Positions 7 through 14,963 of a DNA stretch of 20,427 nt are shown here, in pieces. The notes under the pieces were generated by a model that ran no database searches, was not told the origin of the DNA, and saw only the letters and a program-made list of their open reading frames with translations. The position numbers and the translations under genes are program-made. The stretch is from a candidate division WOR-3 bacterium (GTDB lineage Bacteria; SDB-A). The stretch is taken from NCBI GenBank assembly GCA_016926475.1, contig JAFGON010000105.1:1-20427 (forward strand), given 5' to 3'. Numbering within the stretch: the stretch's first letter is position 1; each line of letters begins with the position of its first letter.

Positions 7-3000
7 ATGCGAGATTTGATGCCTGGTTTCATTGCCCAGAAATATTCCGAAGGAGTAAAATCCGGATTTTTTGAAGCGGCAGTCCTTTTTACCGACATAT
101 CAGGTTTCACAGAGATGACGTCAAAATTGATGGGCAGGGGCAAAGAAGGAATTGAAATACTCACCCTTACAATAAATGAAGTCTTCTCCCCCGCAATTTC
201 AGTTGTCAGGACTTCAGGAGGATTTATTTCAGTTTTCGGAGGAGATGCATTTTACGCGATTTTTGGGTCGGAAAACGCAAATTTCCGTGAAAACGCAATA
301 TACGCAGGTCAAAGAATTGCTCAGATTTTCAGAGAACAAGGATTAAAAAAAACAAAGGGAGGGACTTTCTCCCTTTCCGTGAAAACAGGCATCTCCATTG
401 GAGAAATTCAATGGGGTATAATAGAAAATCCTAGACAAAACTCCTACTACTTCAAAGGCAATCCAGTCGATCTTGCCGCTCAAGCTCAAAATCATTGCCC
501 GAAGAATTCTGTATCAATTGACAAATCATTGAAACGTAGCCTTAAAAACTTTAAATTCAAAAAAATCAGACCTTTAGCTTACGCACCGCTTTTTACTATT
601 AACACTCCCCGGGTATCACAAACCACTAAAAACTGTTCGGAACAGGTTTCAAAACTTTTCTTCCCCTCAAATCTGCTTGAAAGAAATCTGATGGGAGAAT
701 TCAGAGAAGTGGCAAGCGTTTTTATGTCGTTTATGGATACAGAGCTTGTAAAAGACAATATCTCAAGAGTAATAGACCTGGTTCACGAAACAGGAGGATA
801 TTTCAACAGGATAAGCTACGGAGACAAAGGAGGGTTTCTGCTCGTTTTCTACGGAGCTCCTGAAGGTAGAGAAATGCTCTGCGAAAGAGCTGTAAAGATG
901 TCTCTTTCCGCTTCAGAAATTCCCCGTTTTTTGATTTGTACAGGCATATCTTTCGGCATGTGTTTCTCTGGATTTTCCGGAAGCGAAAAAAGAGCTGAAT
1001 ATACCTGTCAGGGTGAAAAGGTAAACCTCGCCGCGAGGCTGATGAGCTATAAATCCGAATACCTCCCGCCCCAGCCAAGAATACTGGTAGAAAATTCGAT
1101 CTTTCAAAAACTGAAAGACGCGTACATTTTCGATAAAATCGGCGAATCGGTTTTGAAAGGGTTCAAAGACCCGATGCCAATATTTTCCTTGAGGGGTGAG
1201 GAAAAAAAGAAAATACCTGGAACTGATAAATCCGGATTTGTTGGAAGAGGACATCAACTATCAAAAAACCTGAAAATGCTCGAAGAAAATTTAAACAAAA
1301 ACCATTTCGGGGGAATTGTCAAAATCGAGGGAGAAGCCGGCGTAGGAAAGAGTTTTTTCGTTTCTGAAATAAAGGAAAAGACCTCCTATATGCAATGGAT
1401 TTCGATTTCTTGCGATCAAATTTACAGGTATTCGCTAAATCCGCTTAAACAGTTTTTGGGAGATTTTTTCATTTTCGACCAGACTCAATCCAACGAAGAT
1501 AAAATATCGTCCATGAAAGGTAAAATAGAAAGTTTGTTTTCAGGCAAAGACGCTTTCAGCATATTTGAGATGGAAAAAATGCTCTATATTTTTTCTGATT
1601 TTCTGGGCATAAAATCCAAATCTTCCCCTTACGGGGATTTAGACTTAAAAAACAAAAAAGCCGAACTTTTCTATTTCATTAAATCAATCATAAAAAAAAT
1701 GTCTTTACGTTCGCCACTTGTAATTTTCATCGACGACATCCATTGGATAGACACCGATACTCTTGAATTCATAAAAACACTCTGCAGAAATGTCGAAAAT
1801 TACCCTTTCGCGGTTATCCTGACATCGAGGCCTTCGGTCGACGGCAACAGAATCGATTTATTTGAAGAGGAAGACTGCAAAAACATAAAACACCATTTCA
1901 TTCACCTCGGACCGTTGAGCCAGGAAGATTCTTACGATCTGATAAAAAAATTTCTCAAACAAAAAAACATTCCTGGGTCTACACTCGAATTTGTCCAAAA
2001 AAAATCCGAAGGCAATCCTTTTTACATCAAACAGACTTTGAGCTTTCTCCTCGAGAACAATCTGCTCGATGAAAACTTCAGAATATCATACGGATCTGCC
2101 TTCATCCCTTCCGGAATCAGAGCTATATTGGTTTCGAGGTTTGACAAGTTCAATGAAGACCTAAAACAAACCGTAGTAAAAGCCTCTGTCCTCGGATTTG
2201 AATTTCAACTGGAGACGCTAAAAAAAATGAATCTGGAAAATGACCTGGTGAAATTGCTCACCGATGGTGAAAAAAACGGAATTTGGTCACCATCCAAAAA
2301 AGGTTTTTACGAATTCAGCCACTCTCTCATCAGAGAAACAGTATATGAAATGCAGCTTTTGACCGAGAGAAGAAAGTTGCACCTACAAGCGGCGACTATA
2401 TATGAAGATTTAGAAAAGGATCAATCGGCTAAATACACGAGTATAATAGCCTACCATTACGACCTTGCTGAAGACAGGGATAATGCTCCCAAGTATTTAA
2501 AAAAAGCTCTGGAACTCGCCGAAAAGGCTTTCTCCAACTCCGATTCTCTAAGGTTTTGCGAAGCTCTCGACAAGTACCTTCCCGGCGGAAGTGAGAAAAT
2601 ACGGAATTGTTTGAGAAGAGTACAACTCTTGAAGCTTACGGGAAGCCTTAAAAGAGCCGAAGTTTTAGCTGAAAAAACGATCGTTGAAAGCGAAAAGGAA
2701 GATTTGCCGGATTTGACCATAAAGTGTCTTCTGGCGCTTTCGGAAATATCTCTGAAAAGATTCGAATTCGAAAAATCCTTTGAAGCTCTAAAAAAATCGG
2801 AAAAAATCCAAACCGTGGACGAAAACCTGAAAGCTTACATACATGAAGTTTTCGGAATTTATTTTCATGGAATTAACAACGAAGAAAAAGCTCTGCCGCA
2901 CTTCAAAAGAGCTCTGAGCTTTTACAGAAGAACTAAAAACAAATCCGGCGAAGCAAAGGTTTTATCGAACATAGCCATACTGTGCGGCAGAGAAATCGGT

Positions 3001-3858
3001 TTTTCAAACGTTTTGACGTATCTTTTTGACGCCCAAAAAATTGCTGAAGAAACTGGAAATCTTTACGACCTTGAAATCATCTATTCGAGCATTGCCCTGA
3101 CTTACACGGAATTGTATCTCGAACTGGAAAAAAGTTTAGAATTTTACCACAAAGCGATTGAAATCTCCCAAAAAATCGGAAACAAATCAACTCTTATGAA
3201 CAACATAAACAACATGGCCAATGTTTACCTTGCTGTCTATCAACATACAAAAGCCGAACAATTGTACAGGGATTCACTGGATTTAGCTCTTGAAACAGGG
3301 CGCAGTCAGGGGATTTTCAACTCTCTTATGAACCTCTCAATTTTATACAAAGATTTGGGCGATTTTGACAGGTGCGTCGAACACATCGAAAAAGCTGAGT
3401 CATTGCTCAGTTTAGAATACAACAGAGACTTGTTGAAGGATGTTTTTACGCTGAAAACAGAGGTTTTATCCTTAAAGGGAGATTTCGTGAAAGCAGAAAA
3501 AAATCTTGACAGAATAAAAGATATCGAAGCCGAAACTCAGAGTGAAGACAACTTGGAGGAATTAGCATTACTCAAAATGAGGATTTCTTTTCTAAAAAAT
3601 CCAGACCAAGAAACCGTCAAAGCCATGATTAGTTCAGCGAAAAAGATAAACTCTCTGTCGTCAAGAGCCCGAGCTTTTTACTCGATATGGGAAAGTACGA
3701 AATCCAAGGACAGCGCGGAAGAAGCTCTTAAACTTTACAATGAAATAATAGAAATGCCTCCTGATGTCTACCAGAACTTTAAATCCGCTGAATATTTAAA
3801 AATAAGGAACGAACTTGAAAGGTTTTTAGGTAAATTTACGAGACCACAGGAAAACTGA
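7..3858 (+). CDS. Soluble adenylyl cyclase-like protein: two class III cyclase domains, P-loop ATPase, TPR array
   Basis: Predicted cytosolic class III nucleotide cyclase (ATP to cAMP), built like animal soluble adenylyl cyclase. Seen: cyclase domain 1 at about residues 20-200, with FTDISGFT (D30) and FGGDAF (D80), the two metal-binding aspartates. Cyclase domain 2 at about 230-395 lacks them but has GDKGG (K274), YTCQG (T333) and VNLAAR (N340, R344), matching adenine-binding and transition-state residues. A single composite active site is therefore likely. A P-loop ATPase follows: Walker A GEAGVGKS (442-449), Walker B VIFIDD (D576, D577), then HWID. From about 780 to the end the sequence is helical TPR repeats. 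No membrane segment or signal peptide. The frame is open to the window edge, so ATG at 7 may not be the true start; MRDLMPGFI does fit the family N-terminus. The 3' end overlaps the convergent kinase gene by 23 bp. cAMP rather than cGMP as product is inference. Confidence 0.88.
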   Translation: MRDLMPGFIAQKYSEGVKSGFFEAAVLFTDISGFTEMTSKLMGRGKEGIEILTLTINEVFSPAISVVRTSGGFISVFGGDAFYAIFGSENANFRENAIYAGQRIAQIFREQGLKKTKGGTFSLSVKTGISIGEIQWGIIENPRQNSYYFKGNPVDLAAQAQNHCPKNSVSIDKSLKRSLKNFKFKKIRPLAYAPLFTINTPRVSQTTKNCSEQVSKLFFPSNLLERNLMGEFREVASVFMSFMDTELVKDNISRVIDLVHETGGYFNRISYGDKGGFLLVFYGAPEGREMLCERAVKMSLSASEIPRFLICTGISFGMCFSGFSGSEKRAEYTCQGEKVNLAARLMSYKSEYLPPQPRILVENSIFQKLKDAYIFDKIGESVLKGFKDPMPIFSLRGEEKKKIPGTDKSGFVGRGHQLSKNLKMLEENLNKNHFGGIVKIEGEAGVGKSFFVSEIKEKTSYMQWISISCDQIYRYSLNPLKQFLGDFFIFDQTQSNEDKISSMKGKIESLFSGKDAFSIFEMEKMLYIFSDFLGIKSKSSPYGDLDLKNKKAELFYFIKSIIKKMSLRSPLVIFIDDIHWIDTDTLEFIKTLCRNVENYPFAVILTSRPSVDGNRIDLFEEEDCKNIKHHFIHLGPLSQEDSYDLIKKFLKQKNIPGSTLEFVQKKSEGNPFYIKQTLSFLLENNLLDENFRISYGSAFIPSGIRAILVSRFDKFNEDLKQTVVKASVLGFEFQLETLKKMNLENDLVKLLTDGEKNGIWSPSKKGFYEFSHSLIRETVYEMQLLTERRKLHLQAATIYEDLEKDQSAKYTSIIAYHYDLAEDRDNAPKYLKKALELAEKAFSNSDSLRFCEALDKYLPGGSEKIRNCLRRVQLLKLTGSLKRAEVLAEKTIVESEKEDLPDLTIKCLLALSEISLKRFEFEKSFEALKKSEKIQTVDENLKAYIHEVFGIYFHGINNEEKALPHFKRALSFYRRTKNKSGEAKVLSNIAILCGREIGFSNVLTYLFDAQKIAEETGNLYDLEIIYSSIALTYTELYLELEKSLEFYHKAIEISQKIGNKSTLMNNINNMANVYLAVYQHTKAEQLYRDSLDLALETGRSQGIFNSLMNLSILYKDLGDFDRCVEHIEKAESLLSLEYNRDLLKDVFTLKTEVLSLKGDFVKAEKNLDRIKDIEAETQSEDNLEELALLKMRISFLKNPDQETVKAMISSAKKINSLSSRARAFYSIWESTKSKDSAEEALKLYNEIIEMPPDVYQNFKSAEYLKIRNELERFLGKFTRPQEN

Positions 3859-5578
3859 AGGAAAAAACACTTCCCGATCCTTCTTCAGAGAAGACATTGA
3901 TCTGCCCGTTGTGAAGCTCGACAAGCCTCTTGACAATCGATAGACCAAGGCCTGTCGTCTTTTCTCCTTCTGTGCCCATTCTTCTAGCTTGGGTGAATTT
4001 GTCGAAAATTTGGCTTTTTATCTTGTCCGGTATCCCTATTCCGTTGTCGGAGATCGAAATTATTGCCCTTTTCTTCCCTTGGGAAAATTCCTCAGTAAGG
4101 GTTATATCTATTCTGCCTCCTCTTTTCGTGAATTTCAGGGCGTTGGAAAACAGATTCTGCAAAATCTGCCAAAACCTGTTTAAATCAATCATGCAAAGAA
4201 GACTTCCTGACTTGTTTGTCCAGGTGAATTTAATTTCCTTTTTTTCGGATAAATTCTGGAAATCTCTGGAAAATTCGGAAATAAGACAGGCAACGTCGTA
4301 TTTTTCGAGACTTAGCGAAAAGTCTTCGCTTTCTATTTTGTTCACTTCGAGAATATCGTTTACGAGGACAAGAGCTCTTTCGATATAGTGCTTCATCACT
4401 TCAAGGGTATTTTCGGAATCCTCGTCGAAGCCGTTGACTTCCAAAAATATGTCGATGAGAGGCAGAAGGGATCCTATAGTCCCTTTAAGGTCATGCGAAA
4501 CCAAACGCAGTATTACGTCTTTGGATCTGTTCAAAGCAACAAGCTCTTCGTTTTTTTTCTCCAATTCGTCTTTTTGGCTTTGGATTCTGGTGTTGGCCTG
4601 GGCGAGTTCTTCATTTTTCATTTTGTATATGGCGTTTTCTCTCTCCTTTACTTTTATTTCGAATCTCGCGTCCATTTCCGCGATTTTCGCGGCTTTTTCC
4701 TCGTTGAAAATTTCACCCGCTTTTTCCGTGAAAATTCTGCTGTAAAAAAGGGCTTTTTTGTAATTTTTTCTTTTTTCGTAAACGTTGGAAAGGCTTTTCG
4801 CCGTGTTTGCGACACCGAGCTTGTTGCCGATTTCGGAATACGAATCAAAAGCTTTTTTTATGTATTTGAGTGCAGTTTTATACTCGCCCTTTTCTTCCAT
4901 GACAAGGCCTATATTGAAAACGCTCGGGGTCATTCCCAGTTTGTTTTTAATCCCTTTTTTCAGGGACAGAGATTTTTTGTAGAACTTAAGAGATTCTTCT
5001 AAATCGCCTTTCTCCCTGTAAACTTCTCCTATGTTGTTGTAAATGTAAGCAAGAGCTCTCTTGTCATCCGTAGCCAGGTTTTCTGCTCTCCTGAGGTATT
5101 CAAGGCTCTTTTCGAATTCGCCGAAATGCCTGTAGATATTCGCGATATTGTTGCAACTCTGCTGTAGCCACCTTGAGACACCTTCTCTTTCCCTGAGTTC
5201 AAGAGATTTCTTCATCAGGTCGAGAGCCTTTTCCTTTAAACCGATTTTGACAAAAACTATCGCCATACCCTCGTAAGAGCTTGTCAGAGTTTTAATGTCG
5301 GGTGTCCCTTCCGATGCTTTATGAAAATAGCCCAGGGCTTTGTCGAAATCGGACATAGCGTAAGAGACGAAGCCGAGTCTCAGCAAAGCCTGTCTTTTCT
5401 TGTTCTCGATTTTTGCCCTCTCTGATATCTCAAGGGCTTTAACCGCCGCGTTGAAAGAAGAGGCGAAATTTGAATTGTCGAAGTATTCCTTGGCCTTTCC
5501 GAGCAAAAAAGAAGCTTTATCTTCTTCAGTGAAAACATTTTCTTTTTCGTATAAAATCTTACTAACCTTATCCGGCAA
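3836..5578 (-). CDS. Cytosolic TPR-containing sensor histidine kinase
   Basis: Predicted autophosphorylating histidine kinase that senses through protein contacts rather than a membrane domain. Seen in the 580 residues: TPR-type helical repeats from about 20 to 290 (for example NNIANIYRHFGEFEKSLEYL near 143-162), a charged coiled coil at about 295-350, a HisKA dimerisation domain with SHDLKG (phospho-acceptor H362), and an HATPase domain with N box NLFSNALKF (475-483), G1 DNGIGIP (511-517), F box FDKF and G2 GLGLS (543-547). It ends there: no receiver domain, no transmembrane helix, and no response regulator in the window. The start is TTG (Met by initiation), chosen because a perfect TAAGGAG lies 6 nt upstream and no ATG is nearby. 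It has its own candidate promoter and follows a terminator. It converges on the cyclase gene with a 23-bp overlap. Its partner is unknown. Confidence 0.92.
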   Translation of the reverse strand: MPDKVSKILYEKENVFTEEDKASFLLGKAKEYFDNSNFASSFNAAVKALEISERAKIENKKRQALLRLGFVSYAMSDFDKALGYFHKASEGTPDIKTLTSSYEGMAIVFVKIGLKEKALDLMKKSLELREREGVSRWLQQSCNNIANIYRHFGEFEKSLEYLRRAENLATDDKRALAYIYNNIGEVYREKGDLEESLKFYKKSLSLKKGIKNKLGMTPSVFNIGLVMEEKGEYKTALKYIKKAFDSYSEIGNKLGVANTAKSLSNVYEKRKNYKKALFYSRIFTEKAGEIFNEEKAAKIAEMDARFEIKVKERENAIYKMKNEELAQANTRIQSQKDELEKKNEELVALNRSKDVILRLVSHDLKGTIGSLLPLIDIFLEVNGFDEDSENTLEVMKHYIERALVLVNDILEVNKIESEDFSLSLEKYDVACLISEFSRDFQNLSEKKEIKFTWTNKSGSLLCMIDLNRFWQILQNLFSNALKFTKRGGRIDITLTEEFSQGKKRAIISISDNGIGIPDKIKSQIFDKFTQARRMGTEGEKTTGLGLSIVKRLVELHNGQINVFSEEGSGSVFSFSFPVVS

Positions 5579-5731: not shown

Positions 5732-7615
5732 TTATTTGACTATATTGACTTTCAGAGACCTTTCATTGCCGTTTACAGAAGCTCTTAAGAAGTAAAGCCC
5801 TGAAGAAAGATCTTCCGAGTTGAAGCTGAGTTCGTGATTTCCTGCAGAAAGTTTACCCTGATAGAGGTTCCTGACGTTTCTTCCGGAGAGGTCATAGAGT
5901 GAAATCGTGACGTCGGATTCGGACACGACAGAAATGCTGAAAACAGACTTTGCGGTCACAAACGTTGGACAGGCGAGTCTGAATAGAGAAGGAACGGTTA
6001 TTCCTATTTCATCCACACCGACTGAAGACCAGGTTCCGTGACAAGCCACCCAGACATCCTGCGTAGATGATTCTCTTGAAGGTGCCCATGAACCTGTGAA
6101 CTCGTAAGCTCTTCTGCTTACTGCTCCAGGCGGTACCGCGCTTGTCCCAGTGGAGAAAGTGCTCTCAAGGACAGTGATCTGACCTACGTAAAAAGCTCCG
6201 TCGTTGATGACAACCGCAGGGCTGACAGGAGCTTTGAACCATAAACCTGCTTGTGCCGTCGTCACAGGCAATCTTGTCGAGAAGAGGATAGTTCCAGGGC
6301 CGCCGTCTGTCCCGTCGTCATCCATTATTATCAATTCAACATCGCCGTTGGCTGAGACAGTAGCCGGGAAAAATCCCACAGAGTCAATAGTGAACGGGTA
6401 ATTCGGGGGTTCATACATGTTCCCGTAACCAGATGAATCGCCGTTCCAGGAGGATCCACTGACGGGTATTGTGTCGTTTCCGTAATTATACCATGCGGGG
6501 GGTGAAAATGTTTGCAGCCTGAGTGTTATAGAGTCGTTGGCTGGTGTCATGTCGCCTGTAAGGTAAGTTCTGACCTGGACCCTGTACGTCGTGTCTAGGT
6601 CGGGGAGAAGGAAAGAGTCATAACTGCAAGTAAAAACATCACCAGGATTTAGAGTTGAAGAGATAGCAACCGTGTCAGCAAAAAGTATTGTAGCGCCTGT
6701 TTTTCTGTATATCCTCAGAATTGCATTGAAGTTTGACTCAGGCTGGTTTCCATAGTTTTTAATTTCAGCAACAGGGTAATAAACTGATCCCCTGTCTCTG
6801 AAAATGCCGCCTGTCAAAGGATTGTCAATGTATGAGACACCGACATCGTGAATCTGAAGGGTTGTAGATTCCGGCGGTATATAGGCTACTGCCATGCCGT
6901 CGACAGGTCTTGACGCTCCCGCTCCCGCTGAACCGTCGCGGAAATACTGGAGTCCAATAGTTCCTGTATTATTCTCAATACCCACCATATCATGTTCTGA
7001 GCCTGAATGATTGTAGGTGCCGTTCTGAGGTCCATACTGCATTGTTATACAGCTATCCGCTTTAGTGAGTATTACCTGGAAAGTATGGTAAGTACCGGGT
7101 ACAGCCCATTCCTGAACACTGTCAAAAGTAACTATGAAAGTGTCAAGCGTTGCAGAAGTGTAATAGTAAACCGCCGGGGAACCAACACCAGGAGAATGAT
7201 CGAGATCCCCTGTGAATATTGCCAAAAGATCGTTCGGTGGCGTGCTCAACGGGATGTTGTGAAACGGATCAGCGAGGTTTGCGTTGCTTGAAAATGAAAG
7301 GTATCCGTTCGAACCAATATAAACCTGATCAACATTGTACCAATAGTAGGGAAAATCAAAACCTATGGGAAAAGGGCCTACTACGTTGTCGTCCATGAGA
7401 CCAGTCACGAGAGTTCCCGTGGTTGAAATATCCATCCAGTTGTATGTCGGGCCACCCGGATCTCCGGATTTGACATAGACATAACCATAAGCATCCGGAG
7501 TTCCAGAATCTGGAGCGAGGAAGCTGATACCGGAGTTCAGATTGCTTCCTGTCCACGGCATCGCCGTAATTGCCGCTGCCGTCAAAAAAGCGACGACGAA
7601 AAACATTTTTTTCAT
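5732..7615 (-). CDS. Secreted protein with C-terminal FlgD/T9SS-like sorting domain
   Basis: Predicted exported, probably surface or extracellular protein of unknown function. Seen: signal peptide at residues 1-18 (MKKMFF, a hydrophobic run, then AITA before MPW). An N-terminal beta-rich region (about 30-240) carries GFDFPYYWYNVDQVYIGSNG, a pattern common in large secreted proteins of candidate phyla. An Ig/CARDB-like stretch starts near IHDVGVSYI. The last ~75 residues form a beta-sandwich with YDLSGRNVRNL, a glycine turn (LSAGNHEL) and LSSGLYFLR, the FlgD-Ig/type IX sorting (type A) signature. No catalytic motif was found. The start is ATG with AAGGAG 6 nt upstream. The gene is monocistronic, with a strong promoter at 7653-7681 and a terminator at 5671-5700. 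Type IX export is inferred from the C-terminal domain; no secretion machinery is encoded here. Confidence 0.87.
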   Translation of the reverse strand: MKKMFFVVAFLTAAAITAMPWTGSNLNSGISFLAPDSGTPDAYGYVYVKSGDPGGPTYNWMDISTTGTLVTGLMDDNVVGPFPIGFDFPYYWYNVDQVYIGSNGYLSFSSNANLADPFHNIPLSTPPNDLLAIFTGDLDHSPGVGSPAVYYYTSATLDTFIVTFDSVQEWAVPGTYHTFQVILTKADSCITMQYGPQNGTYNHSGSEHDMVGIENNTGTIGLQYFRDGSAGAGASRPVDGMAVAYIPPESTTLQIHDVGVSYIDNPLTGGIFRDRGSVYYPVAEIKNYGNQPESNFNAILRIYRKTGATILFADTVAISSTLNPGDVFTCSYDSFLLPDLDTTYRVQVRTYLTGDMTPANDSITLRLQTFSPPAWYNYGNDTIPVSGSSWNGDSSGYGNMYEPPNYPFTIDSVGFFPATVSANGDVELIIMDDDGTDGGPGTILFSTRLPVTTAQAGLWFKAPVSPAVVINDGAFYVGQITVLESTFSTGTSAVPPGAVSRRAYEFTGSWAPSRESSTQDVWVACHGTWSSVGVDEIGITVPSLFRLACPTFVTAKSVFSISVVSESDVTISLYDLSGRNVRNLYQGKLSAGNHELSFNSEDLSSGLYFLRASVNGNERSLKVNIVK

Positions 7616-7781: not shown

Positions 7782-8999
7782 TTACGTCTTCAGCTCTTTT
7801 TTCTTCGCGGCGGGGAAGAGGACGTTGTTGAGAATCAGCCTGTAGCCGGGCGAATTCGGAAAAAACCTCAGGTCGGTCGGGGGATCTCCGACGTAATGGG
7901 CGAAATCCTCGGGGTCGTGCCCGCCCAAATAAGCGAAACTTCCCTGACCAAGGTTGCCGCTGATGTATTTGATTTCATCCGCTCCGGGTACGTCCCCGAG
8001 AACCGTAATCTCCTGCCTGACACATTGACGCCTGAAACCGGTGCACTGGCCCAAAAACTCCCTTACAACCCCTACATGGTTCTGGACGAGCATAGCTGGG
8101 ACAGGATCTTCTTTAGCATTGAACTCGTAGAGCGCGAAAAACACGCCCTCACCCCTCAGGTGGGCTTCCTGTGACACGTCTATAGTAGAATGCTCGTAGA
8201 TGCCTGGGTCTTGAATGATATCGTAGTTTGTAAACGCCGGTGACCTAGTCGTATCGGGTCCGTAAGGGCCTGACGGATCTCCGTCGAAAGGGGATTCGAC
8301 CACATCCCTTCCATAGCTGGCAATGGCAATTTCCCACGTGTCAGTCGCCGAGCACATCGCGAAAAGGTACCCGCCGTTTTCGACGTATTCGTAGAGCTTT
8401 CTCGCGACTTCGTGCTTTAATTCCCATACTTTTGAAAAACCGAGATTTCCGGCGGTCTCTTCGTTGAACTCGACCTGATCTTTGTACCATTGTGTGTTTC
8501 TGTAAGAAGCCCAGAATTTGCCGTACTGGCCTGTAAAATCCTCGTGGTGAAGATGAACCCACTCGTATTCAGAGAGTTTTCCTTCTATTACTTCCCTATC
8601 CCATATCCTGTCGTATGTTATTCCGGCGTAGTCCAGCGCGAGGACTACGGCGTCGTCCCAGGGTTGTGCGGTTGGAGTTTGATAGACAGCGACTTTCGGA
8701 GCCTTTTGAAGCAAAATCACATCCGCGTTTGAACGCTCAATTTCGGATTTGATCAGTGCTTCTACCTCCGGGGAAATGACCGCATAGACAACCCCGGAAA
8801 TTTTCAGGTCTTCCTCTATTTGCGGATTGTCCTCCATTATGAAACTGCCGCTCCGGTAATTCACAAGCCACTCCACCGAAAGACCGACTTCAAGAGACCT
8901 GTAGGCGACACCGTAGGCTTTTAGGTGGTTTGTCTGTGACAAATCCATCGGAACAAATATTCTTGAAGACAGGCAAGCGCAAAAAACGAAAATATTCAT
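7782..8999 (-). CDS. Predicted secreted protein of a family often labelled asparagine synthetase B
   Basis: Function unknown. The 405-residue protein has a short hydrophobic N-terminus (about residues 1-15) that may be a signal peptide, then FVPMDLSQTNHLKAYG, which I recognise as the opening of a family from Bacteroidetes-like genomes that databases tend to call asparagine synthetase B. None of the expected features of that enzyme is visible: no N-terminal Cys nucleophile domain and no PP-loop (SGGxDS). The middle has a class I amidotransferase-like nucleophile elbow, NGGYLFAMCSATD (C216). Other striking motifs are HLHHEDF (149-155), GGHDPEDF (359-366) and a proline/asparagine-rich end (PNSPGYRLILNNVLFP, 381-396). 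The ATG overlaps the stop of the upstream nucleotidyltransferase gene (ATGA), so it is translated from the same mRNA. A 166-bp gap with no clear terminator follows. Family membership is from memory. Confidence 0.75.
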   Translation of the reverse strand: MNIFVFCACLSSRIFVPMDLSQTNHLKAYGVAYRSLEVGLSVEWLVNYRSGSFIMEDNPQIEEDLKISGVVYAVISPEVEALIKSEIERSNADVILLQKAPKVAVYQTPTAQPWDDAVVLALDYAGITYDRIWDREVIEGKLSEYEWVHLHHEDFTGQYGKFWASYRNTQWYKDQVEFNEETAGNLGFSKVWELKHEVARKLYEYVENGGYLFAMCSATDTWEIAIASYGRDVVESPFDGDPSGPYGPDTTRSPAFTNYDIIQDPGIYEHSTIDVSQEAHLRGEGVFFALYEFNAKEDPVPAMLVQNHVGVVREFLGQCTGFRRQCVRQEITVLGDVPGADEIKYISGNLGQGSFAYLGGHDPEDFAHYVGDPPTDLRFFPNSPGYRLILNNVLFPAAKKKELKT

Positions 9000-10739: not shown

Positions 10740-10789
10740 TCTCTTTGGTTGAACGAAAAAGATTTTTTTATTCGTTTAAAGTTCATTCA

Positions 10790-11659
10790 ATGAAAAGAGC
10801 TATAAAAGAAATATCCGTCCAGGTGTTCGCCACGAGGGAAGCTCTCGTTTTCTGGACTTCCACATACATAATACTCGTCCTGATGTACAGGTCGGCTCCC
10901 TACTGGAGTTCTCTTTCGCTTAACTACACGTATTCAACGTTCCTTTTTCTTCTTTTACCTTTAGTTGTCGCTTCTTTCCCTCAGAAAAAAAACTCGGTGA
11001 ATATTGTTTTCTGGGCAATCGCCTTTACCTTTGTGATCTTGCCCTTGCTCGCGGGGGAATTTCTGCCTGAGATCAGAAACAGGTATTTTCCGCCCTACAA
11101 CCCGGAAACAGGCCCGCTTAATTCAATCGAAAAGGGTATAATCCTCGTCGTGCCGAGCTTTCTTCTTGTTTTGCTCTACTGCAGGTTTTCAGGCTTCGAC
11201 CCTAAATCACTCGGTTTGGGAATTGGCAAATGGAAGTTTTGGATCCCTTTGACCGTGGTCCTGGTTCTGGTCATGACTCCGATACTTTTTATCTTCTCCA
11301 AAAAGCCCGATTTCATACAGACCTACCCTCTTTTCAAAAGCATGATAAAGAGCGATGCCGATTTCTGGTCTGTCGATTTGACATGGTTTTATTACTTGTA
11401 TATTTGGGAGTTTTTCTTCAGAGGTTTTATCCTCTTTTCTCTCGCAAAAAAAATGGGGCCCGCGAGAGCCATATTCGTGCAGGCGATCATCTTCTCTTTC
11501 GCTCATTTGGGTAAACCTGAAATAGAGGTGTATTCTTCCATGGTTGGAGGGGTTTTGGTCGGAATTTTGTCCTACATCTCAAATTCGGTTCTGCCCGGCG
11601 CTATAATACACTGGCTTATAGCCCTCATAATGGATTTTTTCGTGTTTTTTTCAGCTTGA
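10790..11659 (+). CDS. CPBP-family intramembrane protease-like protein
   Basis: Predicted inner-membrane protein of the CPBP (CAAX protease/bacteriocin-processing) family. Seen in 289 residues: several hydrophobic helices and, in the C-terminal half, the family motifs WEFFFRGF (the EExxxR box with Trp in place of the first Glu), FSFAHLGKPE (the FxxxH box) and GAIIHW (third motif). WEFFFRG seems to be a recurrent variant of the family (from memory). Because the first Glu is the proposed general base, proteolysis is uncertain. Start: the frame also has an upstream TTG at 10745, but that falls next to the divergent -10 box and has no ribosome site. ATG 10790 gives a natural N-terminus (MKRAIKEISVQVF), though its own ribosome site is also weak. 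It stands alone between the divergent MazG cluster and the promoter of the next run. Substrate unknown. Confidence 0.83.
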   Translation: MKRAIKEISVQVFATREALVFWTSTYIILVLMYRSAPYWSSLSLNYTYSTFLFLLLPLVVASFPQKKNSVNIVFWAIAFTFVILPLLAGEFLPEIRNRYFPPYNPETGPLNSIEKGIILVVPSFLLVLLYCRFSGFDPKSLGLGIGKWKFWIPLTVVLVLVMTPILFIFSKKPDFIQTYPLFKSMIKSDADFWSVDLTWFYYLYIWEFFFRGFILFSLAKKMGPARAIFVQAIIFSFAHLGKPEIEVYSSMVGGVLVGILSYISNSVLPGAIIHWLIALIMDFFVFFSA

Positions 11660-11719: not shown

Positions 11720-12121
11720 ATGATCGAATACGCAATATCTTCACACGCGGAAGAGACAATAGCCATGCTTCGAAAATTCGTCAGCGATCACAATTTTGTA
11801 GAGGGAATGACAATAGCAGACAAAGACGGGCTTTCCATTGTCAGTTATTTTCATTCAGAGACGCAGGAAGAAATTTTAGCGGCGATATCTCCCGTCATAA
11901 TCAAAGATCTCTCGTCTCTCCCCCTGGGTGAAATCAGATATTTTATAGCTATGGGAAAAGACGCTTTCGCAGTGGTCAAACCCCTTGATTCACAGACTTT
12001 TCTATCTATGTTCTCTCAACTCGACGTCTGGAACGGACTTATGGGGCAAAAAGACATAATCACTGATTTTGAAATTTTGACCGCGCAGTTGATGAGGCTG
12101 GGTAACAAAAATGACTCATAA
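11720..12121 (+). CDS. Roadblock/LC7-like domain protein
   Basis: Predicted 133-residue cytosolic protein with the Roadblock/LC7 fold. In bacteria such proteins (MglB-like) usually regulate Ras-like GTPases. Seen: an N-terminal helix, then GMTIADKDGLSIVSY (the beta-hairpin that opens the fold, with the typical DKDGL turn), a long helix (EEILAAISPVIIKDLSSL), and paired strands (EIRYFIAMGKDAFAVVKPL) before a C-terminal helix. No GTPase partner is present in the window. The start is ATG with AAGGAG 7 nt upstream. It is first after the promoter at 11669-11697 and overlaps the next gene by 11 nt, so the two are translationally coupled. The domain call rests on pattern only. A regulatory or scaffolding role is inference. 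Confidence 0.65.
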   Translation: MIEYAISSHAEETIAMLRKFVSDHNFVEGMTIADKDGLSIVSYFHSETQEEILAAISPVIIKDLSSLPLGEIRYFIAMGKDAFAVVKPLDSQTFLSMFSQLDVWNGLMGQKDIITDFEILTAQLMRLGNKNDS

Positions 12122-14963
12122 ATTACTATCTCTAAAGCTTTACATATCGCTCGTACTTGCATTTTCCCTGTCCTCGCCGATTTTAGGACAATACTTCGGG
12201 CAAAACAAACTTCAGTACAGAAGCTTTGAATGGAAAATCACAGAAACCGATCATTTCAGAATATACTACTATCAGGGAATGGACGAAATCACAAATTTCG
12301 CGTGCCAGGTCGCCGAGGACGCCTACGCCACTCTTGCAGTCAACTTCAACCATGAATTCAAAGATAAAATACCCGTCCTCGTCTATCGAAGCCCCAACGA
12401 TTTCGCCCAGACAAATGTGATTCTCGAGTTGATTTCCGAATCGGTGGGCGGTTTTACGGAATTTTTAAAAAACCGTGTTGTTGTACCCTTTGACGGCTCT
12501 TACTCAAATTTCAGGCACGTCATCACACATGAAATAACCCATGCTTTTCAAAACGACGTGCTCTACGGAAATTCAAATATTTTCACCAAAATATATTCAA
12601 TGGATATACCCCTCTGGTGGTTCGAGGGTTCAGCTGAGTTTGAATCCATGGGTTGGGATTCAGAGTCATACATGTACGTCAGGGATCTCGTCTTTTCAAA
12701 CAAATTGGTGAGCCTTCCCGAGCTCGACTATTACGGCGGATACATTATCTACAAAGAAGGCCAGTCCGTTATGTATTTCATTTCCCAAAAATACGGAAGG
12801 CAGAAAATAGCAGAAATATTCCACAACATAAAAGTCACCGGTTCTCTGAGAAGAGCCATTGAGAGAACCTTGAACGTCGATTATGAGACATTCAGCGAAG
12901 AATGGTCGAAATTTCTGTATTCTCTTTACTGGCCTCAATACAATTTTTACGAAGAAATTGACGACTATTCCGTTAAACTGACTGATACGGAAAAACAGTT
13001 CAACTACATAAACCTCTCCCCCGTCATATCTCCCGACGGACTCGAGGTCGTGTACATCAGCGACGCGGGTATCTATATTGACGTTTTGAAAATGTCTGCA
13101 CTAACAGGTAAAATCAAAAAAAAACTCGTCGGTGGTCAGAGAACTCCTCAGTTTGAAGGCCTTCATATACTTACAAGCCATGCTTCATGGTCGCCCGACG
13201 GGGATAAAATAGTGCTGTCTTCGTTGAGCGAGGGCAGAGATCTTTTTTGGATAATCGACGCCGAAACCGGCAGAAAACTCGACAATCTCGACTTCGACCT
13301 CGACATCGCCAGATCTCCTTTTTGGTCAAATCAAAATTTGATATACTTCGTCGGCACGGTTGACGGCAAAACCGACATATACGTTACTGACCCACAGGGT
13401 ATGTCCCTGAGAAGGATTACCGACGATTTTTTTGACGACACAGACCCCTATGTTTCCTCGGACGGAAAATTCCTCTACTGGTGCAGCGACAGAAACCAAT
13501 CCCAGAACTGGGCATACGGAGATTACGCTGTGTTCGAGATGGACCTTGAAAATGGCACGACAAGAGAACTCACCCCGAGAAACCCTTCCGTCTCAAATCC
13601 TTTCCTTTCAAACCAGCCAAACGATTCCTCGCCCAAACTGGTTTTTTTAGCCACCTACAGTCCTGGAAGCAATTTGTATTCCTGCGACCTTGTCACCGGC
13701 GAAATCTGTCAGTTGACCAACTTACCCGGAGAGATTCAGAGTTTTTCCATGGATTCATCCTCAAACAGAATGGTCCTCAGCGTCTACACATCGGGGAAAT
13801 GGGAAATTTTCACAATCGAAAATCCTCTGAATACCCTCGACACTGTCCAATTCGCCTTTGATACGACTTCTTATGTTGACGTATATTCCGAAGTTTTTCA
13901 AGCAGAGGATACTCTCTCATGGGAAAAACCAGGGCTTGACATAACCGCCGACTGGGGACAGGCGTCTATGGCTTATTCAAGTCTTTACGGCTTCGCCGGT
14001 CTTTTGACGATTTATCTCAGCGATTTCATGGGCGACCACAGGTTCCTGATACAGACAGATCTAGCTCAGGACATCTTAAAATCGAATTTCAACCTTATTT
14101 ACTACTACCTGCCGAAAAGGTGGGATCTGGGTTTCGGTATATACCAGCAAAGTTTCGCATACTGGTCCGCGGAAGACACCATTTACGTTGACAAATATTT
14201 CGGCGGTGAAATGCTTTTTATGTATCCTTTCAATAGATTTCAGAGGTTCGACCTTATGCTCGACGCTTATCAGGTGGAGAGAAAACACTACTTCTACGAC
14301 TCTTTTCAGGATGAAGTTTCCTTCACCGGCGACACATCAGAGTTTTTTATTGCCCCGTCTCTTTACTACGTGATGGACAATACAATCTGGGGATACACTT
14401 CTCCCTTCATCGGTTCGAGAATTCGCTTCGGAGGAGGCGTCGCTCAAAGAATATCGGCGAATTCGAGATACTACTGGGGCAGTTTCGATTTCAGAAAATA
14501 CTGGCGCTTGACCCCGAGAAGCAATTTGGCCTTCAGACTCTATCTATCAGGTATAAGAGGAACGGATCCCCCGAACCTCTACCTTGGTGGATACAACAAC
14601 CTCAGAGGATACGGAATAAATGAACTCACGGGTTTCAACACCGGATTTTTATCCCTCGAAGCCCGTTTCCCTTTTATCGACTATCTTGACGTCATGTTTC
14701 CCCTGCCTATCCTTCTTGGAGACATCAGGGGATGCCTTTTTGTTGACGCGGGAGGAGTTGTAGACGATATAGAAAGTTTCAGGGTCTTTTCAGACGATCC
14801 GGAAAAAGGGTTCGGCCTTGAAGATCTGAAACTCGACGTGGGTTGGGGTATTAGAATGTTTTTCATGTCAGCGGTTCTAAAACTCGACTTCGCCGTGCCG
14901 ACAGACTTAAGAAATTTAAACAACAGAACAAGAATTCATTTTTCCATAGGGGAAGATTTCTGA
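12111..14963 (+). CDS. Outer-membrane fusion: HExxH metallopeptidase domain, TolB-like propeller, Omp85-type barrel
   Basis: Predicted exported outer-membrane protein of 950 residues. Seen in order: signal peptide (about 1-26, ending PILG before QYFG). A peptidase-MA-like domain (about 40-275) has HEITH (140-144) and WWFEGSAEF (169-177); the EG glutamate (E172) is the likely third zinc ligand. Next come about six TolB/PD40-type propeller repeats (about 290-590) with blades such as ISPDGLEVVYISD and WSPDGDKIVLSS. A beta-strand-rich barrel (about 620-950) contains GGYNNLRGY (826-834), the Omp85 RGY loop motif, and a final strand ending in Phe. The propeller and peptidase would sit in the periplasm, or outside if the topology is reversed. 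It overlaps the Roadblock gene by 11 nt, and its stop abuts the permease gene. The peptidase substrate, and whether the barrel exports or only anchors, are unknown. Strength differs by part: HExxH and RGY are clear; domain borders are approximate. Confidence 0.85.
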   Translation: MTHKLLSLKLYISLVLAFSLSSPILGQYFGQNKLQYRSFEWKITETDHFRIYYYQGMDEITNFACQVAEDAYATLAVNFNHEFKDKIPVLVYRSPNDFAQTNVILELISESVGGFTEFLKNRVVVPFDGSYSNFRHVITHEITHAFQNDVLYGNSNIFTKIYSMDIPLWWFEGSAEFESMGWDSESYMYVRDLVFSNKLVSLPELDYYGGYIIYKEGQSVMYFISQKYGRQKIAEIFHNIKVTGSLRRAIERTLNVDYETFSEEWSKFLYSLYWPQYNFYEEIDDYSVKLTDTEKQFNYINLSPVISPDGLEVVYISDAGIYIDVLKMSALTGKIKKKLVGGQRTPQFEGLHILTSHASWSPDGDKIVLSSLSEGRDLFWIIDAETGRKLDNLDFDLDIARSPFWSNQNLIYFVGTVDGKTDIYVTDPQGMSLRRITDDFFDDTDPYVSSDGKFLYWCSDRNQSQNWAYGDYAVFEMDLENGTTRELTPRNPSVSNPFLSNQPNDSSPKLVFLATYSPGSNLYSCDLVTGEICQLTNLPGEIQSFSMDSSSNRMVLSVYTSGKWEIFTIENPLNTLDTVQFAFDTTSYVDVYSEVFQAEDTLSWEKPGLDITADWGQASMAYSSLYGFAGLLTIYLSDFMGDHRFLIQTDLAQDILKSNFNLIYYYLPKRWDLGFGIYQQSFAYWSAEDTIYVDKYFGGEMLFMYPFNRFQRFDLMLDAYQVERKHYFYDSFQDEVSFTGDTSEFFIAPSLYYVMDNTIWGYTSPFIGSRIRFGGGVAQRISANSRYYWGSFDFRKYWRLTPRSNLAFRLYLSGIRGTDPPNLYLGGYNNLRGYGINELTGFNTGFLSLEARFPFIDYLDVMFPLPILLGDIRGCLFVDAGGVVDDIESFRVFSDDPEKGFGLEDLKLDVGWGIRMFFMSAVLKLDFAVPTDLRNLNNRTRIHFSIGEDF
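14948..14962 (+). promoter_or_regulatory. Ribosome binding site and possible CTG start for the first permease
   Basis: AGGGG (14948-14952), 7 nt, then CTG (14960-14962), which overlaps the TGA stop (14961-14963) of the peptidase-barrel gene in the same way as an ATGA junction. CTG would restore the complete first membrane segment of the permease. No ATG, GTG or TTG in this frame lies between here and GTG 15014. Confidence 0.4.

Follow-up and report, generated by a model that had tools for sequence, protein, structure and literature searches.

Known Omp85 architectures and the present protein

Omp85 proteins are usually seen as assembly or translocation machines that work via POTRA domains. 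WD40-Omp85 proteins depart from this plan, carrying an N-terminal TolB-like propeller directly before the barrel and no POTRA domain, and the paper by Heinz and Lithgow (2014) proposes that these propeller-barrel proteins are akin to BamA fused to BamB (PMC4104836). A 2024 paper rated the subfamily as not well characterised. In patatin-like Omp85 proteins, an enzyme stands ahead of the barrel. Their representative PlpD is a homodimeric phospholipase with one POTRA domain and no propeller; it was long believed to be secreted, yet its patatin domain has been shown to be periplasmic (PMC11116518). Proteolysis at the site of outer-membrane assembly is known from BepA, a periplasmic M48 zinc peptidase whose action on LptD takes place at the BAM complex (PMC8423444).

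The protein described here is encoded in a window of 20,427 nucleotides (the whole stretch of DNA analysed) from the 2.15 Mb genome of a candidate division WOR-3 bacterium. It has the WD40-Omp85 arrangement, in which a TolB-like propeller leads straight into an Omp85 barrel with no POTRA domain, but places a HExxH peptidase ahead of the propeller, whereas the main text on WD40-Omp85 proteins describes no peptidase (PMC4104836). The 'Metallo' Omp85 subfamily, as presented in that text, is defined by PF00149, a fold unlike that of this peptidase. As in PlpD, an enzyme precedes the barrel, although here it is a peptidase joined to a propeller, with no POTRA domain (PMC11116518). The barrel is homologous to the 16-stranded type of BamA and TamA and carries the same RGF/RGY loop motif, yet the protein, unlike those two, has no POTRA domain, and it coexists with BamA and a TamA-like protein. 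The likeness to BepA, a zinc peptidase at the outer-membrane assembly site, is a functional analogy only: BepA is a free-standing soluble protein from a different peptidase family, with HExxH as the recognised common feature. Our search of the open-access literature found no paper on the combination of peptidase, propeller and Omp85 barrel.

Domain architecture

The open reading frame starts with ATG, is uninterrupted and encodes 950 residues. The closest named relative, a candidate division WOR-3 bacterium, has a protein that is 77% identical. The chain runs from a signal peptide through a Peptidase_MA gluzincin domain and a TolB-like propeller to a full Omp85 barrel (Table 1). A preliminary description, made from the letters alone, had placed HEITH, a downstream EG glutamate, TolB-like blades and an RGY barrel in one exported chain, and Pfam, NCBIfam and profile alignments bear this out. 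Its suggestion that the peptidase and propeller take the place of POTRA domains is supported too: Pfam finds no POTRA domain in the chain, and the 25-40 or so residues free between propeller and barrel leave no room for one. No curated Pfam or NCBIfam family describes the whole chain; matches cover parts of it, those from NCBIfam falling under their cut-offs.

Table 1. Features of the peptidase-propeller-Omp85 gene and its upstream neighbours (positions in the window).
Feature	Residues	Position	Strand	Basis
Rce1-like CAAX endopeptidase gene		10745..11659	+	Upstream neighbour conserved within the WOR-3 family
133-aa upstream gene, overlapping the start of the 950-aa gene by 11 bases		11720..12121	+	Same position in three WOR-3-family relatives
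Whole gene, peptidase-propeller-Omp85 protein	1-950	12111..14963	+	Pfam/NCBIfam; same full-length architecture in homologues
Signal peptide without lipobox Cys, probably cleaved ahead of Q27	1-26	12111..12188	+	Sequence reading; homologues likewise
FGQNKLQY motif, mature N-terminus	29-36	12195..12218	+	84-homologue alignment
Peptidase_MA_2 gluzincin domain	68-270	12312..12920	+	Pfam PF13485; found in 21 of 22 family members
GFTE...R, putative substrate edge strand	114-122	12450..12476	+	G114 and R122 99% conserved
HEITH zinc motif	140-144	12528..12542	+	H140, E141, H144 invariant, 84/84
PLWWFEG	167-173	12609..12629	+	W169, E172, G173 invariant, 84/84
Invariant tyrosine	214	12750..12752	+	84/84 homologues
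TolB-like beta-propeller	about 300-590	13008..13880	+	Pfam PD40, NCBIfam, profile alignment to TolB
Omp85 barrel, C-terminal Phe	about 616-950	13956..14960	+	Pfam, NCBIfam, profile alignment
LRGY, loop-6 hallmark of Omp85	831-834	14601..14612	+	R832 94%, G833 93% conserved

About six PD40-type repeats can be counted by eye in the propeller. Pfam recognises PD40 there (1.6e-14), NCBIfam reports TolB-propeller similarity at residues 359-536, under the equivalog cut-off, and a profile built from the family alignment aligns to TolB at about 1e-27. The protein as a whole is no TolB, which pairs an N-terminal domain with its propeller: its score of 72 bits falls below the cut-off of 343.

The C-terminal barrel and its RGF/RGY loop-6 motif place the protein in the Omp85 superfamily. 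Pfam matches Omp85 (PF01103) at residues 665-950 (6e-15), and NCBIfam finds BamA similarity at 617-950, again under the equivalog cut-off. The family's barrel profile spans PDB 9ccg end to end (3e-20) and matches BamA barrels at about 1e-11. BamA and TamA have at least one POTRA domain ahead of the barrel and PlpD-type proteins have a patatin domain; Pfam detects neither here. Judging from its length and the end-to-end profile match, the barrel probably has sixteen strands; a rough alternation scan, on which we place no reliance, showed 19 peaks. Full-chain AlphaFold2 prediction without homologues returned a pLDDT of 32, far too low for use.

The peptidase domain

Peptidase_MA_2 is recognised with an E-value of 9e-8, barely above the Pfam cut-off. 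HExxH with a conserved downstream glutamate, the signature of gluzincins (clan MA(E)), is present in 84 of 84 homologues. The spacing is HExxH-X27-E, which makes E172 the putative third zinc ligand. M9 collagenases have this same spacing, whereas in M1 aminopeptidases it is shorter. Y214 is a candidate transition-state residue, and the GFTE...R segment, if M1 and M9 peptidases are a guide, would form the substrate edge strand. Taken together, these residues suggest a domain that binds zinc and cleaves proteins.

In a profile search of solved structures, the peptidase part ranked M9 collagenases at the top (9e-4), with M1 enzymes next. Both groups are gluzincins and share HExxH and the downstream glutamate with this domain, but they are soluble, have no barrel and match it weakly (E about 1e-3 or worse). 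A model of the domain built with one close relative reached a pLDDT of 50 (low confidence), and the hits that Foldseek ranked for this model were largely M1 aminopeptidases and collagenase H, without any significant match.

Distribution and conservation

Full-length homologues occur far outside the protein's own phylum (search of 60 relatives). The preliminary description had called for homologues with the same domain order, and these proved plentiful: across bacteria, 123 of 386 widely sampled genomes contain a profile match at 1e-60 or better, mostly over the full model length, and many have two copies of the gene. Every full-length homologue examined has the HExxH peptidase ahead of the propeller. 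Some Omp85 protein was found in 359 of the 386 genomes, so the protein is present in about one third of the sampled genomes that bear an outer membrane. A minority of the 123 matches are weaker and divergent. Those inspected in full keep HExxH, with lower similarity in the barrel. In the divergent relatives L147-L155, peptidase and propeller are accompanied by a barrel whose similarity is weaker or unrecognised; HExxH is still kept.

HExxH was kept in all of the first 22 homologues aligned. The final alignment comprised 84 homologues, down to about 24% identity, and H140, E141, H144, W169, E172, G173 and Y214 are invariant across it. Identity at this distance indicates that HEITH and the EG glutamate are not chance resemblances, and loss of HExxH from most homologues, set in advance by the preliminary description as fatal to its reading, is not what the alignment contains. 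Conservation extends into the barrel, where G768 is invariant and P706, Y797, D638 and G911 reach 99%.

The mature N-terminus is conserved about as tightly as much of the active-site region. Right behind the predicted signal peptide, nearly all homologues carry F-G-x-N-K-[VI]-x-x together with a tryptophan at position 41. Among the 84 homologues, identity is 92% at F29, 95% at G30, 95% at N32 and 96% at K33, and FGxNKVQY is approximately 95% conserved across very distant homologues. The motif may have a structural or a regulatory role. Within this genome it does not behave as a general sorting tag, matching 8 times where the control matches 5 times, nor as a shared one, since no other match lies at the start of a protein in a long frame.

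Pairwise distances of the peptidase and the barrel are correlated (r 0.79), a value that no permutation out of 999 approached. Such co-variation indicates that the fusion is old and has been kept, the three domains having travelled together instead of being fused repeatedly. No relatives were found in viral contigs, which argues against a phage-borne gene.

Genomic context

The same genome encodes BamA (816 aa, several POTRA domains), a TamA-like POTRA-Omp85 protein of 616 aa whose gene adjoins a TamB homologue, LptD, a distinct TolB-like protein (425 aa) and two M48 peptidases, one of 434 aa. It also encodes a second enzyme-Omp85 fusion, a patatin-Omp85 protein of the PlpD kind (720 aa, L156 2990-5149). 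The 950-residue protein is consequently an additional Omp85, and its barrel need not be a general insertase. We rejected it as a replacement for BamA or TolB, given that both are encoded alongside it. A BAM-like insertase whose peptidase domain is a non-catalytic scaffold for binding substrates would suit the BamA-like barrel with its RGY motif and the usual assembly role of the Omp85 family; we regard this as highly improbable, because strictly kept catalytic residues (84 of 84) would be needless in a dead enzyme and because the genome already has BamA and TamA.

The product of the 133-residue upstream gene looks Roadblock/LC7-like by eye and has no Pfam or NCBIfam match. Neither this gene nor the CAAX endopeptidase gene is a general partner, as their conservation is limited to the WOR-3 family. 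Elsewhere, neighbours vary widely between lineages and are often envelope genes. In L040, L043, L113, L145 and L146, the next gene downstream encodes a BamB-like PQQ propeller, and GWxTD proteins are also among the neighbours. In L095 and L098, only a 4-base gap separates the gene from those for MlaE and an MlaF-like ATPase downstream, and an MCE protein gene lies directly upstream in L117 and L119. All of these neighbours are leads, selected after inspection and with statistics that ignore kinship.

The Mla and MCE genes raise the idea of a lipid-homeostasis device that works at the outer membrane with the Mla/MCE transport system. We consider this very unlikely: the association covers just 4 of about 80 loci, picked post hoc, a peptidase has no obvious role in lipid handling, and the window's own locus has no Mla or MCE gene.

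Other genes of the window deserve mention. A conserved protein, 'MDLSQTNHLKAYG' (7782-8999, - strand), has no Pfam or NCBIfam match; its homologues are found close to the peptidase-Omp85 gene in L024 and L025, and in L117 and L119 they lie two genes upstream of that gene, next to an MCE gene. A large regulatory protein with an adenylate-cyclase domain, AAA and TPR (7-3858, + strand) is adjoined by a TPR histidine kinase (3836-5578, - strand).

Association with type IX secretion

The protein might instead mature secreted cargo, as a protease auxiliary to the type IX secretion system (T9SS) or to another export route. It occurs in 70 of 76 genomes with SprA, compared with 53 of 283 Omp85-bearing genomes without it, an odds ratio of about 51 (386 genomes, statistics ignoring kinship). 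The genome studied here encodes a divergent SprA, and its window includes a secreted protein with the T9SS sorting domain Por_Secre_tail (5732-7615, - strand). The correlation is, however, confounded by phylogeny: SprA and the peptidase-Omp85 protein are both concentrated in related lineages, for which reason the idea stays a rival. Further, SprA was not detected in the 53 other genomes that carry the protein, and among the families listed no T9SS gene recurs beside the peptidase-Omp85 gene. We therefore hold a T9SS-dedicated role to be quite unlikely.

A proposed tethered periplasmic protease

We propose, with moderate confidence, that the protein is a specialised extra Omp85: a zinc endopeptidase that faces the periplasm, is tethered to the outer membrane and cleaves proteins assembled or exported there. 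It would be exported by Sec and lose its signal peptide, after which the barrel would insert into the outer membrane while peptidase and propeller remained in the periplasm. The propeller would stand in for POTRA domains as a docking and spacing platform. The gluzincin active site would cut polypeptides presented at the membrane, its likeliest substrates being outer-membrane or exported proteins that are stalled, misassembled or in pro-form. In overall action it would resemble BepA, BamB and a BamA-type barrel combined in one chain. The periplasmic position of the peptidase and its class of substrates are suggested by analogy with known systems.

The invariant zinc ligands, catalytic glutamate and Y214 support the proposal, as do the profile match of each domain to its expected family, the co-variation of peptidase and barrel, and the BamB-like genes directly downstream in several homologues. 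Support also comes from BepA, which shows that a periplasmic zinc peptidase can process barrel proteins during their assembly on BamA (PMC8423444), and from PlpD, the one studied enzyme-Omp85 fusion, whose enzyme domain is periplasmic (PMC11116518). Counting against the proposal, the 434-residue M48 protein may already occupy the niche of BepA, and the neighbours are variable, some of them (MlaE, MCE) belonging to lipid transport and not to protein assembly.

The preliminary description envisaged a processing and translocation or anchoring device. Anchoring at the outer membrane finds support and translocation does not; the precedent of PlpD, with its enzyme domain kept in the periplasm, favours the former (PMC11116518). 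This precedent also bears on a surface protease, in which the barrel would export its own N-terminal peptidase and propeller, and external protein would be degraded at the cell surface. Secreted M9 collagenases are indeed among the peptidase domain's nearest relatives in sequence, and patatin-Omp85 proteins were initially believed to work in that way (PMC11116518). Yet PlpD proved otherwise, the folded propeller, about 290 residues long, would need to be unfolded and threaded through a small pore without ATP, and an even-stranded barrel has its N-terminus facing the periplasm. We judge surface display unlikely.

Implications

We tentatively speculate, while regarding it as doubtful, that the tethered protease represents a widespread and unrecognised class of single-chain outer-membrane proteases. 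In these, a periplasmic gluzincin would be controlled by the propeller and barrel, FGxNKVQY would have a gating or regulatory part, and the role would lie in protein quality or export maturation, both inside and outside the T9SS-bearing (FCB-like) lineages. Found in 123 of the 359 sampled genomes that bear an Omp85 protein, this ancient family joins a propeller on an Omp85 barrel to a complete zinc active site. WD40-Omp85 proteins may consequently be membrane-tethered proteases instead of BamA-BamB fusions.
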